Shown here: positions 1,030 through 32,202 of the stretch, one piece after another
How positions within the stretch are numbered: the stretch's first letter is position 1
Layout of the letters: each line of letters starts with the position of its first letter
NCBI RefSeq assembly: GCF_963681195.1
Contig: NZ_OY808997.1
Coordinates: 992,001 to 1,056,000 of the forward strand
Reading direction: 5' to 3'
DNA length: 64,000 nt
Source of the DNA: Vibrio sp. 16
GTDB taxonomy: Bacteria > Pseudomonadota > Gammaproteobacteria > Enterobacterales > Vibrionaceae
Notes under the pieces: generated by a model
The model's input: only the letters and a program-made list of their open reading frames with translations
What the model was told of the DNA's origin: nothing
The model's database searches: none
Translations under genes and position numbers: made by a program

Positions 1030-3057
1030 TCATAGGTTGGTGATTTTAAAGTCGGTTTCCGCTCGTTGAGGGAGATAGATACTAAAGGTTGTCCCCTTGC
1101 CCCATTGTGACTCCACCTTAAGCTCCCCACCCGTTTGGCTAAGAATACTTTGGGAGACAGACAGCCCAAGCCCAGTACCTTCACGTTTGGTGGTATAGAA
1201 AGGTGAGAAAATGCGTTTCAGATTTTCAGGCTTAATTCCGCATCCTTGATCCGTTACGTGGATGATGGCGCCAACACAACGATCGCCTTCCAACCAATCC
1301 TCGGTGGTTATCGTCAGTTTGCCCTTTCCATCCATTGCATGGATGCCGTTCATCTGCAAATTGACCAAAATCTGCAACAGCTGGTGACGATTGACCTCGA
1401 CAGAGCTTTTGGCATTGAGCTTAGTAACAAACTCGACATCGCGTTTCTTGGTGCCCGTTTTCACCAACGTAATGCTCTCATCGACAACGGGATTGACATG
1501 CTGCCAAGTGATCTCGTCTTGCACGCCACCTTGACGGCTGTATTGAAGCAAACTGCGTGTGATATTACGAATGCGGTCAATTTGCGCGTGGATTGCGTCT
1601 ATCTCTTCTTTTACTCTCTCGGCATCATCACCAAGTTCAAATTGAATCAACTCCACGTTGCCCAGTATTACCGCGCTTGGGTTATTGATCTCATGCGCGA
1701 TCCCAGCAGTTAGCTCACCAAGTGCGGCAAGTTTTTCGTTCACAACCAACTTATCGCGAGTTTGATTCAAGAGTTGAATATGAAGCTCAAGATCTTCGGT
1801 TTTTTCCATCAAGCTGGCGGTACGTTCTTCTACCTTGGCTTCAAGTTCAATGGCCGCAGCTTTCAACTCGTTTTTCCGCTGTTTGAGCAAATCAAGCATG
1901 TTGTCAAATTGGCGAGCAAGTTGGGCGAGTTCATGGTTTTCGTCTAAACCCAAGGTGCCAATTCGGGTCTCTTTACCCATCTGAATCATTTTGACTACGC
2001 GATGAATATGCTCAATCGGGTTAAACAAATCTCGTGAACCACGATAAACAATCAGACCAGATACCAACAGCAACAGCAGTGTCGTTACCGAGATTTCAGC
2101 GATGTTGGTCATGTACGCTTTGACAAACGGCCACAGCAAATAACCGGTGTAGAGCATTCCGATAACATTGTCATATTGGTCGCGTATCGGTTGGTATGCG
2201 GTGATGTACCAAGCGTCATACACAAATGCACGGTTGACCCACTCTCTCCCTTCGTGCAATACGGCGCGATTGACCTCTGAAGAAACGCGCGTACCAATGG
2301 CGCGTCCGACTCGATCGTTGCTATCAAGGGGCACATTGGTACTGACACGGAGATCATCAAGAAAGACGGTTAACGTCCCCACAGGTCTCAAGCTGTCATG
2401 TTTAGACGGATAGATAAGATCGCGGATTTGATCGACCAACACCGTGCTGTTGTTGAGCAGTAATCCCCCATCTAAAAAACCAATGATATTGTTTTTTTGA
2501 TCGTAGATAGGGACGACAGTGCGGCTCACCAGCCCGCGCCTTTCAAGTTTTTGGCTGTTTAAAATCGGGATTTGCGCCCGCGTAACGAGTTCTTTATCAA
2601 GCTCATCCAGCTCATGCTCGTCTAACACATCAAAAAAAGACTCTTTAAGCGTTAAATCTAGGAAGCGAAACTTGTCTTCTGGTCTCTCTACTCGGTGAAA
2701 ACGGAGGAAGTCGAGATTGTAGCGATGCTTTTGCTCTGAAACCCAGCCGCTAAAGTCATCAAACTCGCTTTGATTGTTGATCGCGTAAACAAAATCGAAT
2801 GATTCAGAAAACGCCTTAACGTGATTGGCTTGCTTCTCTTGAATTAACTCGATGCTGTTATCGGCAACGCCCAAACGTTCAGAAACATCAAGCAGCGCGC
2901 TTTGCCATGTGTAATGAATCGACCAATAGATGGTGATCCCTATTAAGGCAACCAAGGTCAAAAATATCGGTGCAGACGTCAGAATCATCAGACGATAGCG
3001 CACCATGGTTTTGAAGCGATAGCGCCACTTTGTCCACAAGTTGCCGTTATTCGGCAT
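1030..3057 (-). CDS. Membrane sensor histidine kinase with double Cache sensor domain
   Basis: This 675-residue kinase is probably the partner of the sigma-54 response regulator just upstream. A membrane segment lies at about residues 26-48. A periplasmic region (50-310) has a second lobe typical of Cache_3/Cache_2 sensors (GRAIGTRV, then WYITAYQPIRD). A second membrane segment (320-338) and HAMP follow. HisKA carries the phosphoacceptor H455 (GIAHEINNP). The HATPase has N, G1 (DQGCGIKP) and G2 (GTGLGLS) motifs. The ATG at 3057 is chosen over one at 3075 because GGAGGAG lies 8 nt upstream; it overlaps the regulator stop by 11 nt, implying translational coupling. The ligand is unknown. The divergent tungstate operon suggests an oxyanion or anaerobic-respiration signal, which is inference. 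Confidence 0.92.
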   Translation of the reverse strand: MPNNGNLWTKWRYRFKTMVRYRLMILTSAPIFLTLVALIGITIYWSIHYTWQSALLDVSERLGVADNSIELIQEKQANHVKAFSESFDFVYAINNQSEFDDFSGWVSEQKHRYNLDFLRFHRVERPEDKFRFLDLTLKESFFDVLDEHELDELDKELVTRAQIPILNSQKLERRGLVSRTVVPIYDQKNNIIGFLDGGLLLNNSTVLVDQIRDLIYPSKHDSLRPVGTLTVFLDDLRVSTNVPLDSNDRVGRAIGTRVSSEVNRAVLHEGREWVNRAFVYDAWYITAYQPIRDQYDNVIGMLYTGYLLWPFVKAYMTNIAEISVTTLLLLLVSGLIVYRGSRDLFNPIEHIHRVVKMIQMGKETRIGTLGLDENHELAQLARQFDNMLDLLKQRKNELKAAAIELEAKVEERTASLMEKTEDLELHIQLLNQTRDKLVVNEKLAALGELTAGIAHEINNPSAVILGNVELIQFELGDDAERVKEEIDAIHAQIDRIRNITRSLLQYSRQGGVQDEITWQHVNPVVDESITLVKTGTKKRDVEFVTKLNAKSSVEVNRHQLLQILVNLQMNGIHAMDGKGKLTITTEDWLEGDRCVGAIIHVTDQGCGIKPENLKRIFSPFYTTKREGTGLGLSVSQSILSQTGGELKVESQWGKGTTFSIYLPQRAETDFKITNL

Positions 3058-4492
3058 AATTAGACTCCTCCGCATCCCACTCTTTGTATTTGCGCTCTAG
3101 TGTCTTGCGCGCTACGCCGAGTTCTCTTGCAGCGGCCGATTTGTTGCCGTCATGCAGGTCAACTAATTGCTGGATATGTGCTTTCTCCACTTCTTTCAGT
3201 GTCCAACTGCTCGGATAACCTTGAACATCATTGGCTTGAGGTAGGTCAATCATTTCGCAGCCACTAGATACCGTCACAGAGACATTTTGCTGCGGTGGTA
3301 CGCCATTCACTTCACGCCAGTAATGAGCAGGAGGCTTACCAAGCAAGATACATCGTTCAATCAAGTTCTTTAGCTCACGGATGTTACCAGGCCAGTCATA
3401 GTCATTCATGGCGATAATGTCTTCATGAGCCCACTTAGGATCCGTCACACCTAACTCGGCAGACAGCATACGAGTGAAGAATGGTACCAACTCGATTAAG
3501 TCCGCTTTTCGGTCTCTCAGTGGAGCAACGTCAATTTTCAATACGTTGAGTCGGTAGAATAAGTCGCGGCGAAAGTTCCCTTTGTCGACTTCTTCTTGTA
3601 GGTTTCGGTTCGTCGCAGCAACGACGCGAACATCAATAGTGATCTCTTTCTCGCTACCTACCGGACGAATAGTGCGTTGCTCTAATACGCGTAACAATGC
3701 CGACTGCATAGAGAGTGGCATTTCCCCGATCTCGTCCAAAAATAGTGTGCCACCGCTGGCAACGCGGAACATGCCTTCACGGTTTTTCTTTGCTCCCGTA
3801 AACGCGCCGGAGGTATGGCCGAACAGTTCACTTTCGAGAAGCTCAGGGGCGATTGCCCCACAGTTGATGGGCACAAAGGGGCCTTTACGTTGGCTTGCTT
3901 CATGCACACCTCGCGCCACCAGCTCTTTGCCCGTTCCTGACTCTCCTTCGATTAGTACAGAAGCTCGAGACGGAGCAAATTGACTGATCAATTGTTTAAG
4001 TTGTTTGGTGCGCTCTGACCCACCAACGATTTCCGTTTTAATATGGCGCTTAAAGTCGTGGCTTAGCGCGTACTGGTGTCGCTCAGCCAAGCGTTTATCC
4101 ATACAGCGCTGAACGGCTTGCAGCATTTGTTCCAGGTTAAACGGCTTCAAAATAAAGTCTGAAGCCCCCAATTTAAGCGCTGAAATCGCGGTTTCTAGAT
4201 CGGCGTAGCCTGTCATAAAAATAACGTCAGCCTTGCGATCTTCATCCGTGAACGCCTCTTTCCATTCTATCCCCGAGCGCCCCGGCAAATTGATGTCCAA
4301 TATGATCAAATCATAATGATTGGCGACCCGCATTGTCTCAGCTTGTTCAATAGAGCCAGCGGTATCGACACGAGAAAACCATTTGCTGAGCGCCTTATTC
4401 AATATGGCCTGCATACCGGTTTCATCATCCACCACTAATACGGAAAAGGCCTGATATTGGGAAGTTTTATTGGGATCAAACGTTGGGGACAT
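3047..4492 (-). CDS. Sigma-54-dependent NtrC-family response regulator
   Basis: The protein has 481 residues. The receiver domain (15-130) carries acidic residues VDDE and phosphoacceptor D66 (LIILDINLPG). The AAA+ domain has Walker A GESGTGKE, the sigma-54 contact loop GAFTGA, Walker B GGTLFLDEIGE and the R-finger region. The C-terminal Fis-type helix-turn-helix is NKSAAARELGVARKTLERK. It is the first gene of a two-gene operon with the kinase and is divergent from tupA. A perfect sigma-54 promoter faces tupA across the 260-bp gap, and two matching inverted repeats lie between, one 27-43 bp upstream of this start codon. Control of the tungstate/molybdenum-cofactor operon and of itself is therefore likely but inferred. 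Confidence 0.93.
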   Translation of the reverse strand: MSPTFDPNKTSQYQAFSVLVVDDETGMQAILNKALSKWFSRVDTAGSIEQAETMRVANHYDLIILDINLPGRSGIEWKEAFTDEDRKADVIFMTGYADLETAISALKLGASDFILKPFNLEQMLQAVQRCMDKRLAERHQYALSHDFKRHIKTEIVGGSERTKQLKQLISQFAPSRASVLIEGESGTGKELVARGVHEASQRKGPFVPINCGAIAPELLESELFGHTSGAFTGAKKNREGMFRVASGGTLFLDEIGEMPLSMQSALLRVLEQRTIRPVGSEKEITIDVRVVAATNRNLQEEVDKGNFRRDLFYRLNVLKIDVAPLRDRKADLIELVPFFTRMLSAELGVTDPKWAHEDIIAMNDYDWPGNIRELKNLIERCILLGKPPAHYWREVNGVPPQQNVSVTVSSGCEMIDLPQANDVQGYPSSWTLKEVEKAHIQQLVDLHDGNKSAAARELGVARKTLERKYKEWDAEESNYAE

Positions 4493-4518
4493 AATGACTC
4501 GTTCAATTAAATAGAGGT

Positions 4519-4535
4519 TGGGACAGAGTGTACCA
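4519..4535. promoter_or_regulatory. Candidate activator site 2 (inverted repeat TGGGACA-N3-TGTACCA)
   Basis: This 17-bp near-palindrome is centred at 4527, 138 bp upstream of the predicted tupA start. It matches the site at 4564-4580 under the shared pattern TGSGACA-N3-TGTNYCA. The centres are 45 bp apart. It lies just upstream of the regulator gene, so it could also mediate autoregulation. Confidence 0.55.
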
Positions 4536-4563
4536 AGGTTTAGGCCAAGGGAATAAACTAATC

Positions 4564-4580
4564 TGCGACATTTTGTCTCA
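4564..4580. promoter_or_regulatory. Candidate activator site 1 (inverted repeat TGCGACA-N3-TGTCTCA)
   Basis: This 17-bp near-palindrome has one mismatched pair. It is centred at 4572, 93 bp upstream of the predicted sigma-54 transcription start. That is a usual distance for an enhancer bound by an NtrC-type activator. The likely binder is the divergently encoded regulator. Confidence 0.58.
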
Positions 4581-4638
4581 CATCAAATTTTACATTGATA
4601 AATCATTGATATTTCGTGATTTATATCATCCCAATTAT

Positions 4639-4654
4639 TGGCATTAAGATTGCT
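4639..4654 (+). promoter_or_regulatory. Sigma-54 promoter of the tup-mob operon
   Basis: TGGCAT-N5-TTGCT matches the -24/-12 consensus TGGCAC-N5-TTGCW at all invariant positions (GG and GC). The predicted start is near 4665, giving an 87-nt leader before tupA. Confidence 0.8.
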
Positions 4655-4671
4655 TTAAATGCGTGTCTATC

Positions 4672-4697
4672 GATAAAGTAGAGACCGCTACGTTATC
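4672..4697 (+). other. Leader hairpin upstream of tupA
   Basis: GATAA-A-GTAG pairs with CTAC-G-TTATC around a 6-nt loop: nine pairs and one A/G mismatch. It lies in the predicted tupA leader with no T-tract after it, so it does not look like a terminator. It does not match the molybdenum-cofactor riboswitch as I know it. Function unknown. Confidence 0.3.
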
Positions 4698-4752
4698 TCA
4701 ACTTAGAAGATTATTTTGGCAAGTCAATACCATCACATGGAATGATAATATA

Positions 4753-5571
4753 ATGAAAACAATGACTTTAACTCTTGCAACAGCGTCCTTGGCCCTCGTT
4801 AGCTATTCAGCGTCATCGGCAGATGAACAGCCTCACGTCCGTTTAGCGACTACCACAAGCACCTACCACTCAGGCTTACTCGACTACCTACTTCCTGAAT
4901 TCGAAAAAGATACAGGCTACAAAGTTGATGTGATTGCCGCGGGCACCGGTAAATCCCTAAAAATGGGCGAGAACGGCGATGTGGATTTGGTGATGACTCA
5001 CGCACCAAAAGCAGAAGCGAATTTTGTTAAAAAAGGTTACGGTGTCCTACCACGTAAACTGATGTATAACGACTTCGTTATCGTTGGCCCAGAAAAAGAT
5101 CCTGCGAAGATCGCGGAATCTGCAGACGTTGCTCAAGCATTCAAAAAGATCGCCAACATGAATATGACGTTTGTCTCACGCGGCGACGATTCTGGTACTC
5201 ACAAAAAAGAGAAAGGCATTTGGCAGCAAAGTAAGATTGAACCAAACTTTGGCGGCTACCGCAGCGTGGGCCAAGGCATGGGGCCAACACTCAACATGGC
5301 CAATGAAATGCAAGGCTACACCATGACTGACCGCGGTACTTGGCTTGCGTACAACAATAAGCTCGATCTTAAAATTCTGTTCCAAGGTGACAAAAACCTA
5401 TTTAACCCTTACCAAGTGATTTTGGTAAACCCTGAGCGCTACCCAACCATCAACTACCAAGGCGCGAAAGTATTCAGTGACTGGCTTGTAAATCCTAAAG
5501 GCCAGCAATTGATCAACGAGTTCAAGTTGAGCGGTAAGCAGTTGTTTGTCGCGAACGCGAACGAGAAATAA
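4753..5571 (+). CDS. tupA: Tungstate ABC transporter, periplasmic binding protein
   Basis: TupA (272 aa) captures tungstate in the periplasm for import. A Sec signal peptide covers about residues 1-24 (cleavage after SASSA). The TTTSTYHSGLLDYLLP segment and the later GDDSGTHKKEK are the oxyanion-binding signatures of TupA rather than ModA or phosphate PstS. The ATG at 4753 is chosen because the longer in-frame start at 4663 coincides with the predicted transcription start and would put an extra tail before the signal peptide. The gene is first in a tight operon; tupB begins 5 nt after its stop. Tungstate versus molybdate preference cannot be proved from sequence, but the family is usually tungstate-specific. 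Confidence 0.9.
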   Translation: MKTMTLTLATASLALVSYSASSADEQPHVRLATTTSTYHSGLLDYLLPEFEKDTGYKVDVIAAGTGKSLKMGENGDVDLVMTHAPKAEANFVKKGYGVLPRKLMYNDFVIVGPEKDPAKIAESADVAQAFKKIANMNMTFVSRGDDSGTHKKEKGIWQQSKIEPNFGGYRSVGQGMGPTLNMANEMQGYTMTDRGTWLAYNNKLDLKILFQGDKNLFNPYQVILVNPERYPTINYQGAKVFSDWLVNPKGQQLINEFKLSGKQLFVANANEK

Positions 5572-5576
5572 CCTCT

Positions 5577-6275
5577 ATGAGCCTTTGGCAAACTACCCTT
5601 GATGCCCTTGCCTTGTTGGTGAGTTTGGATCGAGAACTATGGGAGATCGTTGCGGTCTCCTTTAGTGTTTCTCTGACCGCGATTTCTTTGGTGCTTTTAC
5701 CTGCTATCCTGTTCTCCTTTATTCTGGCGTATACAGAGTTTCGCGGGAAATGGTTGTTCTTATCGCTGGTTAACACGTTGCAAGCCATACCGACCGTGGT
5801 GATTGGTCTGCTGCTTTATATCCTATTCTCCCGCTCAGGCCCTATGGGAGATTGGCAAATGCTCTTCACTCAAAAGGCGATGATCGTTGGTCAAATGCTG
5901 ATTGGCTTTCCGGTTTTAGTCTCAATGATGCACGGCGCACTGCAATCGAGTGATCGCCGCGCCATTGAAACTGCGATTACCCTCGGCGCTTCACCAACCC
6001 GCATCGCCGCCACCATGATTTGGGAAACTAGATTTCCATTGATGGCGGCAACCATTGCAGCTTTTTCGAGAATTGTGACCGAAGTGGGCTGCTCAACCAT
6101 GGTCGGAGGCAATATCATGGGACTCACCCGTAACATTCCGACCGCCATCGCGATGGAAAGCCATAAAGGCGCATTTGCTCAAGGTGTTGCGCTAGGTATG
6201 GTGTTACTGGCACTGGCGCTCGCGTTAAACTTCGCTCTTACCTCGATGCGTGGTAAAGGGTATCTAAGAACATAA
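5577..6275 (+). CDS. tupB: Tungstate ABC transporter permease
   Basis: This 232-residue inner-membrane permease has about five to six hydrophobic segments. The cytoplasmic EAA-type coupling loop is TAITLGASPTRIAATMIWE near residues 137-155, followed by an SRIVTEVGCSTMVGGNI segment typical of TupB. It forms the channel fed by TupA and powered by TupC. It starts 5 nt after tupA and ends 9 nt before tupC. The ribosome-binding site is weak, as expected for coupled translation. Confidence 0.9.
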   Translation: MSLWQTTLDALALLVSLDRELWEIVAVSFSVSLTAISLVLLPAILFSFILAYTEFRGKWLFLSLVNTLQAIPTVVIGLLLYILFSRSGPMGDWQMLFTQKAMIVGQMLIGFPVLVSMMHGALQSSDRRAIETAITLGASPTRIAATMIWETRFPLMAATIAAFSRIVTEVGCSTMVGGNIMGLTRNIPTAIAMESHKGAFAQGVALGMVLLALALALNFALTSMRGKGYLRT

Positions 6276-6284
6276 GGACGCTGT

Positions 6285-7001
6285 ATGACAATAAAAATCA
6301 ATGCGCAGCAACTGTCCATGCGATACAAAGAGCGTGTGCTTTTTCATATCCCTCACCTTTCTATCGGCCCCAATGACGCGATCTACTTAAAAGGTGACAA
6401 TGGCGTAGGCAAGACCACCCTACTAAAGATTTTGTCTGGTTTGATCAAGCCAACCACAGGCTCGGTCAATGCACCCAATGATCATTGGATTCACCGATTG
6501 TTTAGTCGCACCGGTCGTAAAGATGTTATCTATCTCCATCAATCTCCCTACCTTTTTGATGGCACTGTTTACCAAAACGTCGCTTACGGCATTCGATTTC
6601 ACAAAGAGTCGCAGAAAGATAAGCGAGCTCAAGTCATCACTGCATTAAGAATGGTAGGCTTGGAAACACTCGCTGATGAACACATCTCGGTGTTGTCTGG
6701 CGGTGAAAAACAGCGTGTGGCAATGGCGCGAGCTTGGATCCTCAAACCCTCAATCCTTTTAATGGATGAGCCCAGTGCGTCATTAGATCAAGAGTCGATC
6801 GAACGCTTGGTTGTGATGGCGAAAGATTTACTTCAACGAGGTTCAAGTATCGTGATCACCAGCCACCAAAAGAACGCATTAACGGATTTATGTCGCAAGC
6901 AATGGTGGATAAAAGACACAACTTTGATAGAGTCTCCGCTGTTACAAGTGATTACTGATGCAAAACAAGAGAACAGCTATGCTTCTTCCAACGCAAACTA
7001 G
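6285..7001 (+). CDS. tupC: Tungstate ABC transporter ATP-binding protein
   Basis: This 238-residue ABC ATPase has Walker [10 protein letters not shown] near residue 36, Q-loop YLHQSPYLF, signature [13 protein letters not shown], Walker [13 protein letters not shown] and switch histidine TSHQ. It follows tupB by 9 nt and overlaps mobA by 23 nt, so uptake and cofactor synthesis are probably translated together. The signature and short length fit a single-domain importer ATPase. There is no C-terminal TOBE regulatory domain of the kind found in ModC. Confidence 0.92.
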
Positions 7002-7566
7002 TTGGGTTATTTTGGCTGGTGGTCAAGCCAGCCGTATGGGCGGAAAAGACAAAGGTTTAATAGAGTTAAACCATAAACCGCTGATACAACATGTTATTGA
7101 GCGACTCTCTCCTCAAACTCCAAATATATTGATCAACGCCAATCGTAACCATGATGCTTACGCTCAGTTTGGACAGGTGTTTAGTGACCGATTTGCCCAC
7201 TTTCCTGGCCCAATGGGTGGGATTCACGCTGGGTTGGTTCACGCAACAACCGACTGGGTTGGATTTGTGCCTTGTGACAGCCCTCAAATCAACCACGATT
7301 TGGTCGAACGATTCTGCCGAGCGGCGAACAAAGATACCGACATCCTGGTCGCCCATGATGGTGAGTTTAAGCAACCTGTCTTCACGCTCTATCACAAACG
7401 TGTGCTTCCTAAGCTCACCGCATTTCTAGAACGCGGCGACAGAAAAATCATCTTGCTTTACAAAGAATGTAAAACCGCTTACGTCGATTTTAGTGATTCT
7501 CCCGATTGCTTCGTTAACTTAAACACACCGGAAGAACTGGCTCAATTTGGAACACTATCCGCATGA
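6979..7566 (+). CDS. mobA: Molybdenum cofactor guanylyltransferase
   Basis: MobA joins GMP from GTP to molybdopterin to make the guanine-dinucleotide cofactor used by DMSO-reductase-family enzymes (nitrate, TMAO and formate oxidoreductases). The nucleotidyltransferase motif [15 protein letters not shown] lies at residues 13-27. PGPMGGI and the metal-binding VPCDSP follow. The start at 6979 gives 195 aa, close to E. coli MobA (194), and has AAGAGAA 8 nt upstream; a longer start at 6958 is possible. The gene overlaps tupC by 23 nt and the next gene by 4 nt (ATGA). It sits in an uptake operon rather than next to a separate mobB. Confidence 0.93.
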
Positions 7567-9341
7567 TTAAATCTCTCCCAATTCCGATTCTTGGCTTTGC
7601 TGCCTACTCTGGCACGGGCAAGACAACGTTACTTGAAGCACTACTGCCTAAATTGACTGATGCAGGTTTACGCATCGGTATGTTGAAGCATGCGCACCAC
7701 AACTTTGACGTCGATAAGGAAGGCAAAGACAGCTACCGCTTACGAAAAGCTGGTGCATCGCAAATGTTGATTTCCTCCCGAAACCGTTTCGCTCTCATGA
7801 CCGAAACACCGGAGTCAGAGTCAGAGTTTGATTACCTTCTCAGCCGATTTGATACCGAAAAACTCGACATCATCCTTGTCGAGGGGTGCAAGAACATCGC
7901 CTTCCCTAAGATAGAGCTTCATCGTGAAGAAGTGGGAAAACCTTGGCTTTACCCGAACGATAACAACATTATCGCCATTGCTGCCGATGAAGTGGTACCA
8001 GATACATCACTGCCACAAATGTCGATCAACAACCTTGAAGCGATTGCCAAATTTGTCGTCGATTATGCTCGTGCTTCAAAGCAGCCTTCGTCAGCGAAAA
8101 CCGAATCCGCATGTTGTGACACTCTATCTCCTGCGTTTCTTTCGGTAACACAAGGGCAAGAGAAGATCCTGTCACTGGTCGATGCCGTTACCGAGACTCA
8201 AACTTGCCCTGTTGAACAAAGTTACGGCCGAGTATTGGCAAACGATGTTCAATCACCGGTCAGCGTACCTCAATACACTAACTCTGCGATGGATGGTTAT
8301 GCGATTCGCGGAGACGACTTAGACCGAGACCAATATCACGTGGTGGCGGAAGTCCTTGCAGGTCACGCTTATCCTCATGCTTTGGAAAAAGGCCAAGCGG
8401 TAAAAATCATGACGGGCGCACCAACGCCTGAGTTCTCGGACACGGTAGTGATGCGTGAGCAAGCGACCGAAATCGGTGACAATGTCACATTCAATGGTGC
8501 ATCCATTAAGCGTGGGCAGAATGTTCGTCAAGCAGGCGAAGATTTACCACTTGGCGCCAATGTGTTTAATCAAGGCCAGCGCATCGCGTCAGCAGAGATG
8601 GGCATGATCGCCTCTCTCGGATTCGGTGAGTGCTCGGTCTTTCGTAAACTGAAAGTCGCCGTTTTCTCAACGGGTGATGAAGTGCAAGCGCCGGGAAGCA
8701 AGCAGCAAGAAAACACCATCTATGACTCAAACCGCTTCACGATTATGGGTCTATTAGAGAACTTGGGCTGTTACATCATTGACTTTGGTATATTGGAAGA
8801 CAATGAAGCGTTAATGATCGAGGCATTGGAAAAGGCAGCCGAGCAGGCAGACGTCGTGATTACTTCAGGCGGCGTCTCTGTTGGTGATGCAGATTACATC
8901 AAGCTAGCGCTCGATAAGCTTGGACAAATTGACTTTTGGCGAATCAACATGCGACCAGGACGCCCTCTCGCTTTTGGCCACATCAACCAAAAACCATTCT
9001 TTGGTCTGCCAGGAAACCCTGTTGCCGTAATGGTCTCATTCATCAACTTTGTTGAACCCGCACTTCGCAAAATGCAAGGCGAACACAATTGGACGCCGCT
9101 CAAGGTGAATGCGATGGCTTCTGAAAACCTTCGCTCTCGTCAAGGTCGCACAGAGTTTAGCCGAGGTATTTACCAACTTGACCACTCAGGCCAACTAACC
9201 GTAAGAACCACTGGCAAGCAAGGCTCAGGAATACTGCGTTCTATGAGTGAAGCCAACTGCTTGATTGAGATTTCTCCCTCTGTCGATACAGTGAAAGTCG
9301 GTGAAAGCGTGACAATCATCCCGCTTCAAGGCAGAATCTAG
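7563..9341 (+). CDS. Fused MobB / MoeA molybdenum cofactor protein
   Basis: This 592-residue protein joins two molybdenum-cofactor functions. Residues 1-170 are a MobB-type GTP-binding domain with P-loop AYSGTGKTT and HAHHNFD, which assists guanylyl transfer by MobA. After a linker (about 170-185), residues 185-592 are MoeA, which inserts the metal into adenylated molybdopterin. Its motifs are [26 protein letters not shown] and [13 protein letters not shown]. The reading frame is continuous. The start overlaps mobA by 4 nt. This two-domain form is, as far as I recall, annotated in other vibrios. With TupABC it implies supply of a tungsten- or molybdenum-pterin cofactor. Confidence 0.93.
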
Positions 9342-9351
9342 CCCCATGAAC

Positions 9352-9382
9352 TTAAGGCCGCTTTGTCGGCCTTAAACTTTTT
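9352..9382 (+). terminator. Rho-independent terminator of the tup-mob operon
   Basis: TTAAGGCCG (9352-9360) pairs perfectly with CGGCCTTAA (9367-9375) around a 6-nt loop. ACTTTTTG follows. It closes the operon 10 nt after the mobB-moeA stop. Confidence 0.88.
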
Positions 9383-9401
9383 GACTATTTGAGAGATCTT
9401 T

Positions 9402-9668
9402 ATGGCTCGTACCATCCTTTACACCTACAAAGGTGAAGACAAGACCCTGACCTTTTCTTATGAAAAGCACCGCAACATTCATGAAGCCGTCGCTGAAGCA
9501 GAAGGGATCGATATTTCTCAGTACCTAAAAATGGAGCAGCAAATCGAGGCGGTTTCCGATACAAAAGCAGTACGAAACTACCGCGACAATCACTTCAGAA
9601 AACTCGGTTTTGAAAAGCTAACGCTGCAACAAAAAGAAAACCTTGGGGTCGGCAAGAAAACCAAGTAA
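9402..9668 (+). CDS. Small conserved protein, DUF2960-like
   Basis: This is an 88-residue, basic, soluble protein without signal peptide or membrane segment. By recall it resembles the DUF2960 family of vibrios and relatives, whose function is unknown. It is separated from the molybdenum-cofactor operon by a strong terminator, so it is probably its own unit. GAGATC lies shortly before the ATG. It is followed by a strong bidirectional terminator. Confidence 0.75.
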   Translation: MARTILYTYKGEDKTLTFSYEKHRNIHEAVAEAEGIDISQYLKMEQQIEAVSDTKAVRNYRDNHFRKLGFEKLTLQQKENLGVGKKTK

Positions 9669-32186: not shown

Positions 32187-32202
32187 TGGCACCTAACTTG
32201 CT
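32187..32202 (+). promoter_or_regulatory. Sigma-54 promoter of sypI
   Basis: TGGCAC-N5-TTGCT is a perfect consensus match. The start is predicted near 32213, 32 nt before sypI. Confidence 0.88.

Follow-up and report, generated by a model that had tools for sequence, protein, structure and literature searches.

Organization of the tup locus

The window analysed here, a stretch of 64,000 nucleotides from Vibrio sp. 16, carries the genes for a sensor histidine kinase and a sigma-54-dependent response regulator, divergent from an operon (tupABC-mobA-mobB/moeA) for an apparently Tup-like molybdenum/tungsten importer and for synthesis of the molybdenum cofactor. The contig that holds the window is, at 3.08 Mb, the largest of the 4.66-Mb genome; the source Vibrio is very close to V. 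sinaloensis AD048 (TupA 99% and regulator 100% identical in locus L001). The kinase gene (1030–3075, reverse strand) specifies a periplasmic sCache_3_3 domain, HisKA and HATPase_c (Pfam sCache_3_3 4e-27, HATPase_c 2e-23). The regulator gene (3047–4492, reverse strand) specifies a receiver (Pfam Response_reg 2e-25), an AAA+ domain (Sigma54_activat 4e-70) and a Fis-type helix-turn-helix domain (HTH_8 4e-10), and GAFTGA, the sigma-54 contact motif, was read in its translation. The best NCBIfam matches of the regulator were AtoC and NtrC, both below cut-off.

On the forward strand, tupA (4753–5571) encodes a tungstate/molybdate-binding protein whose PDB relatives are 3muq (the best, with no function named), 3lr1 (named tungstate-binding) and 5my5. 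It is followed by tupB (5577–6275), a permease scoring 185 bits with the general ABC_perm1 model (above cut-off), and by tupC (6285–7001; ABC_tran 6e-28), an ATPase of 238 amino acids against 319 in the family model, which seems to lack the C-terminal part. The mobA gene (6979–7566; TIGR02665, 243 bits, above cut-off) encodes a molybdenum cofactor guanylyltransferase. A mobB-moeA fusion for cofactor metal insertion (7563–9341; NF011060, 1003 bits, above cut-off) overlaps the end of mobA and extends the operon beyond position 7566, where the original prediction had let it end.

The intergenic gap of 260 bp contains two palindromes and a single −24/−12 promoter. The promoter, TGGCATTAAGATTGCT (4639–4654, forward strand), is one of two perfect matches to TGGCAY-N5-TTGCW in the window; the other is TGGCACCTAACTTGCT at 32187–32202. 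The distal palindrome TGGGACAGAGTGTACCA (4519–4535) and the proximal palindrome TGCGACATTTTGTCTCA (4564–4580), proposed as upstream activator sites 2 and 1, respectively, are the only matches without mismatch to TGNGACA-N3-TGTNNCA, both in the window and in the whole genome. They lie 45 bp apart, with centres at about −138 and −93 from a transcription start expected near 4665; the promoter and the repeats are thus present as the original prediction had described them. With up to one mismatch allowed, the genome gave 49 strand-hits for the palindrome against 68 for a reversed control pattern, which is not above chance, and the other one-mismatch palindromes of the genome were rejected as targets.

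Conservation of the palindromes and the promoter

The 80 named loci obtained in a scan with TupA are the best 80 of 97. The regulator gene adjoined tupA in 79 of the 80, all with identical gene order; the remaining locus, L069, is cut by a contig end. A sigma-54 promoter was present upstream of tupA in all 79 loci (78 perfect, one with a single mismatch), with the −24 GG, the −12 GC and their spacing conserved. At least one upstream site scored in every one of the 79 loci with a matrix trained on the tup loci themselves. Two or more sites were found in 62 loci and a single site in 17. The spread from first to last site was 45 bp in 59 of the 62 and 61–62 bp in three (L008 and L009, which have the 45-bp pair plus a third site, and L060 with 61 bp). 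V. mimicus and V. metoecus show what is left of a decayed second site at the 45-bp position; the tup site of Cocleimonas is weak, with three mismatches. The motif is thus conserved before tupA in other vibrios, and the lack of conservation that would have spoken against the original prediction was not observed.

Among the tup loci, the promoter lies anywhere between 70 and 220 bp from its nearest site; the sites have therefore been kept while the spacer changed. Helical phasing of these distances was borderline (p ∼0.05 at 10.5 bp and 0.004 at 11 bp) on values that are not independent, and was discarded.

A second target: the formate dehydrogenase operon

The genome search also gave a second palindrome pair, 61 bp apart and some 5 kb ahead of the window, among hits that overall were at chance level. 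The operon behind it encodes a 4Fe-4S protein, a TorD-like chaperone and the alpha, beta (FDH3 type) and gamma subunits of a formate dehydrogenase, of which beta and gamma score above their NCBIfam cut-offs and alpha below; fdhD and DUF3305/DUF3306 genes adjoin it. Between the sites and the operon lies TGGTACAGCAATTGCT, a sigma-54 promoter with one mismatch.

A symmetric matrix was trained on 24 distinct tup sites only and then applied to the regions upstream of fdh. Of 22 regulator-positive loci, 21 had an fdh region that exceeded the 99th percentile of shuffles (in the remaining one, L149, the site lies further upstream); so did 25 of 26 tup regions in these loci, and five other upstream regions stayed at chance. 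Among the genomes of the chosen loci, 15 of 16 were searchable, and 14 of these had their proximal fdh site at −85 to −87 of the sigma-54 promoter. Twelve further genomes all had fdh sites, at −85, −86 or −96, with fdh 24–113 kb away from the regulator gene in ten of them and on a separate contig in two. In L139, L145, L146 and L147, fdh fell outside the first stretch and the sites were found in a later one; a few fdh sites were positioned elsewhere, for instance at −78, −88, −100 and −109. L158 has the regulator, and its fdhA region is cut by a contig end. When the tight palindrome (at most one mismatch) was searched for in 21 relatives, 11 of 13 same-genus genomes showed two places, 7.6–22.6 kb apart on one contig, the second of which was not matched to fdh genome by genome; G155 and G156 were without such a pair. 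Overall, formate dehydrogenase seems to belong to the regulon.

The DUF3305 gene beside fdh (L127:14154–14346) has a sigma-54-like match of its own in 23 of 23 regulator-positive loci and in none of L152–L155, counted as up to two mismatches within 400 bp, a frequency for which chance was not measured. Upstream of this gene the tup-trained matrix detected no palindrome above chance.

Relatives without the regulator

Among 150 genomes of the family, the regulator was found in 112 (threshold E 1e-100), TupA in 118 and the FdhA of this operon in 116. Every genome with the regulator had TupA, and one, G087, was without an FdhA match. Five genomes had TupA and FdhA without a match to the regulator. 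In four of these (G030, G122, G128 and G011) fdhD adjoins tupA, the kinase and regulator genes are missing from that place, and neither a sigma-54 match nor a palindrome was detected before tup or fdh. As two of the four appear to be close relatives, perhaps three events are represented; the system may have been lost or may never have been present. The fifth genome, G013 (L156), and the tup-only genome G022 (L157), which has decayed remnants of promoter and site, were left out of the four cases. Sites, promoter and gene order are thus conserved where the regulator is present, and sites and promoters are absent together in the four relatives that lack it, which supports the tie between palindromes and regulator made in the original prediction.

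The identical gene order in the 79 loci could also be read as shared descent of a slowly changing gap, the conservation having no function. The sites persist over the range of promoter distances given above, matching sites stand at a separate operon, and sites and promoters are gone from the four regulator-less relatives; this explanation is largely refuted already, and we regard it as highly improbable.

Across the class, with a threshold of E 1e-125, relatives of the regulator were present in 20 of 321 genomes, the source genome included. The other 19 genomes provided 20 loci with short flanks (L164–L183). Five of these (L164, L168, L176, L177 and L183) have tupA near the regulator gene, with a sigma-54 match in four and a more or less altered palindrome in all five. 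Elsewhere mobA (L165, L172, L179, L180 and L181) or fdhD (L181 and L182) was seen, and in the short stretch inspected the remaining loci showed no tupA, mobA or fdhD.

Agreement with published expression data

The RpoN regulon of V. parahaemolyticus, in the parts of the study drawn on here, lists VP1510–VP1515 (fdh), VP1508 and VP1501 as RpoN-dependent with motifs (PMC9817140). In the rpoN deletion strain these genes were down by log2 3.2–4.8, 1.84 and 1.45, respectively, and VP1501, VP1508 and VP1510 were flagged as finds of V. cholerae RpoN chromatin immunoprecipitation sequencing (PMC9817140). VP1501 is labelled hypothetical there; its printed motif is identical to the tup promoter of eight loci, and VP1501 is therefore evidently the tupA orthologue. 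The VP1510 motif differs by one mismatch from the fdh promoter of V. harveyi, V. owensii and V. diabolicus. The VP1508 motif occurs exactly in V. diabolicus, and VP1508 is likely the orthologue of the DUF3305 gene. These comparisons rest on the printed motifs, the V. parahaemolyticus sequence itself not being included. The sigma-54 dependence of the tup and fdh operons is already in print, and it fits the sigma-54 control predicted for the tup operon. The consulted parts of the study contain no activator, no upstream sites and no words beginning with tungst- or molybd- (PMC9817140). For RpoN-dependent genes that those parts leave without a named regulator, our analysis proposes an activator, and it gives the most likely identity of the gene VP1501/VC1523. 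In the literature searched, which did not extend to a 2012 V. cholerae RpoN paper, we found no paper naming an activator of the tup/fdh genes or the palindromes, and no direct test of DNA binding by the regulator.

In V. cholerae, according to the parts of the reports used, VC1510–VC1518 and VC1523–VC1524 went up together in a ribD deletion strain, as did VC1510–VC1518 and VC1523 in a ribN deletion strain (PMC5816637). VC1523 is marked as activated by quorum-sensing signals, and an AphA immunoprecipitation peak lies by VC1522/VC1523 (PMC6855506). That peak speaks for the alternative that the palindromes belong to another DNA-binding protein, for example a repressor or global regulator, and that the neighbouring regulator acts elsewhere. 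The position of the first site would also suit this: among the 45 loci with an alignment starting at residue 1, it is found 20–27 bp upstream of the beginning of the regulator in 39. Against it, the printed AphA motif differs from the palindromes (PMC6855506), the sites are absent from the four relatives without the regulator, and a second sigma-54 promoter has matching sites at an almost constant distance. We consider another protein improbable and binding by the regulator the better reading.

As an addition compatible with that reading, the regulator might also control its own gene through the distal palindrome. Of the same 45 loci, 40 have the first site 20–30 bp away from where the regulator begins; on the other side, no sigma-70-like promoter was found at 4400–4800, and the fdh operon has similar multiple sites without an adjacent regulator gene. 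Self-control is put forward only tentatively.

The sensor domain and the proposed signal

The kinase sensor (about residues 45–320) has the sCache_3_3 domain and fold of formate-sensing Cache domains. In structure comparison its model scored highest with formate-bound Cache domains, chains outside those listed carrying no weight. Three residues linked to the binding of formate, R243, T246 and T262 (R-x2-T and a later T), were invariant in 23 of 23 sequences, and the triad was kept in 14 of 15 distant kinases (exception L169), these being the 15 of the 20 class-level loci that aligned across it. The open frame of 682 amino acids at L214 (G000:C1:456394–456711) looks like a chemoreceptor gene whose product has an sCache_3_3 domain, with the triad visible by eye, and is a possible formate chemoreceptor of the source Vibrio.

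We propose that kinase and regulator form a dedicated two-component system. The periplasmic Cache domain would bind a ligand, most likely formate, leading to phosphorylation of the regulator; the phosphorylated regulator would bind the 17-bp palindromes as an enhancer and drive sigma-54 transcription of both tupABC-mobA-mobB/moeA and the fdh operon. Formate dehydrogenase, its metal importer and the last cofactor steps would then be made under one signal. As a whole, this circuit is the probable explanation of the data. The control of the molybdenum/tungsten uptake and cofactor genes is real and conserved, and very probably depends on an enhancer. Binding of the palindromes by the regulator, the phosphotransfer and formate as the signal are inferred. 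The original proposal, that a two-component system switches on uptake and cofactor genes together, is thereby supported on comparative grounds; the fdh operon seems to be added to the regulon, and the signal is likely formate instead of tungstate or molybdate.

Several observations weigh against this interpretation. The triad was kept in 13 of 16 regulator-linked loci, with S at the third place in three. It also occurs in six of ten sCache_3_3-matching loci without an adjacent regulator, and it therefore marks the domain family and not formate sensing specifically. In this comparison L214 and L239 could not be usably aligned, and the alignments of L232 and L236 were ambiguous. Sequence matches of the sensor are weak (E 0.0023, and 0.18 with a single sequence), and in the Foldseek ranking 8py0 came seventh, after integrative models and LuxQ. 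TupA, TupB and TupC reached 252, 174 and 108 bits, below the NCBIfam tungstate cut-offs of 400, 320 and 400, so that the metal may be molybdate. G013 has kept the sites with only a fragment of the regulator, no fdh site was found in Cocleimonas (one of the 15 loci searched), and the fdh promoters have 0–2 mismatches to the sigma-54 consensus, several with one or two. Finally, the RpoN gel shift at VP1510 was negative and indirect control was proposed; the same authors noted that core polymerase may be needed for such a shift (PMC9817140, in the parts used).

The same circuit and regulon could also answer to another signal, such as low tungstate or molybdate, a small carboxylate other than formate, or some respiratory cue. 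In favour of this, genes for metal uptake and the cofactor belong to the regulon, the triad is widespread within its domain family, and fdh and tup rise together in the V. cholerae riboflavin mutants, where formate was not the variable (PMC5816637). Conversely, in the source parts used, formate is what the receptors of this domain type (Cache_3-Cache_2/sCache_3_3) with a stated ligand respond to, namely PacF (as cited in PMC12501870), McpF and one gut receptor. Formate is also present in the best structural matches, and half of the regulon oxidises it. A different signal thus appears rather unlikely, and formate remains the preferred ligand.

Comparison with known systems

The sensor fold and the R-T-T triad are common to the Vibrio kinase, PacF, McpF, 8py0 and 8py1. 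Those are chemoreceptors, whereas the Vibrio domain is part of a histidine kinase; moreover, the 136–151 aligned residues extend across 270 of the model, which means that the Vibrio sensor contains additional sequence.

ModE, TunR and the Moco riboswitch control molybdenum and tungsten genes, the same kind of genes as those of the Vibrio system. ModE and riboswitch control of the tup operon were rejected: no ModE scored over cut-off in the source genome, in a search that did not extend to TunR; positions 4300–9500 gave no Rfam match up to E 1; and RF01055 is absent before the tup operon. The only Moco riboswitch found (G000:C1:1607412–1607549) precedes moaA; a one-mismatch palindrome match inside it is probably there by chance. 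Separate genes on the second contig (L129:3740–6284) read as modABC.

NtrC-type activators use palindromic sites upstream of −24/−12 promoters. NtrBC, AtoSC and ZraSR have the receiver, AAA+ and Fis-type domains in common with the Vibrio regulator, but differ from the Vibrio pair in sensor domain, sites and targets. FhlA of E. coli is a sigma-54 activator that responds to formate by switching on a formate-dependent system. It binds formate itself, in the cytoplasm, without receiver or kinase, and controls formate hydrogenlyase, not tungstate uptake. The Vibrio system resembles FhlA as a presumably formate-responsive sigma-54 system, but is built as a two-component system, and the regulator has a Response_reg domain. 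It stands outside the FhlA, ModE and riboswitch groups. If the proposal is true, an enzyme substrate, formate, is coupled to the supply of the enzyme's metal: the suggested design is one in which metal uptake would answer to the substrate of the metal enzyme and not to the metal itself. We give an even chance to the full description, that of a two-component system which senses formate in the periplasm, has relatives in other Gammaproteobacteria, and through which formate would induce formate dehydrogenase together with molybdenum/tungsten import and cofactor assembly via one enhancer sequence.
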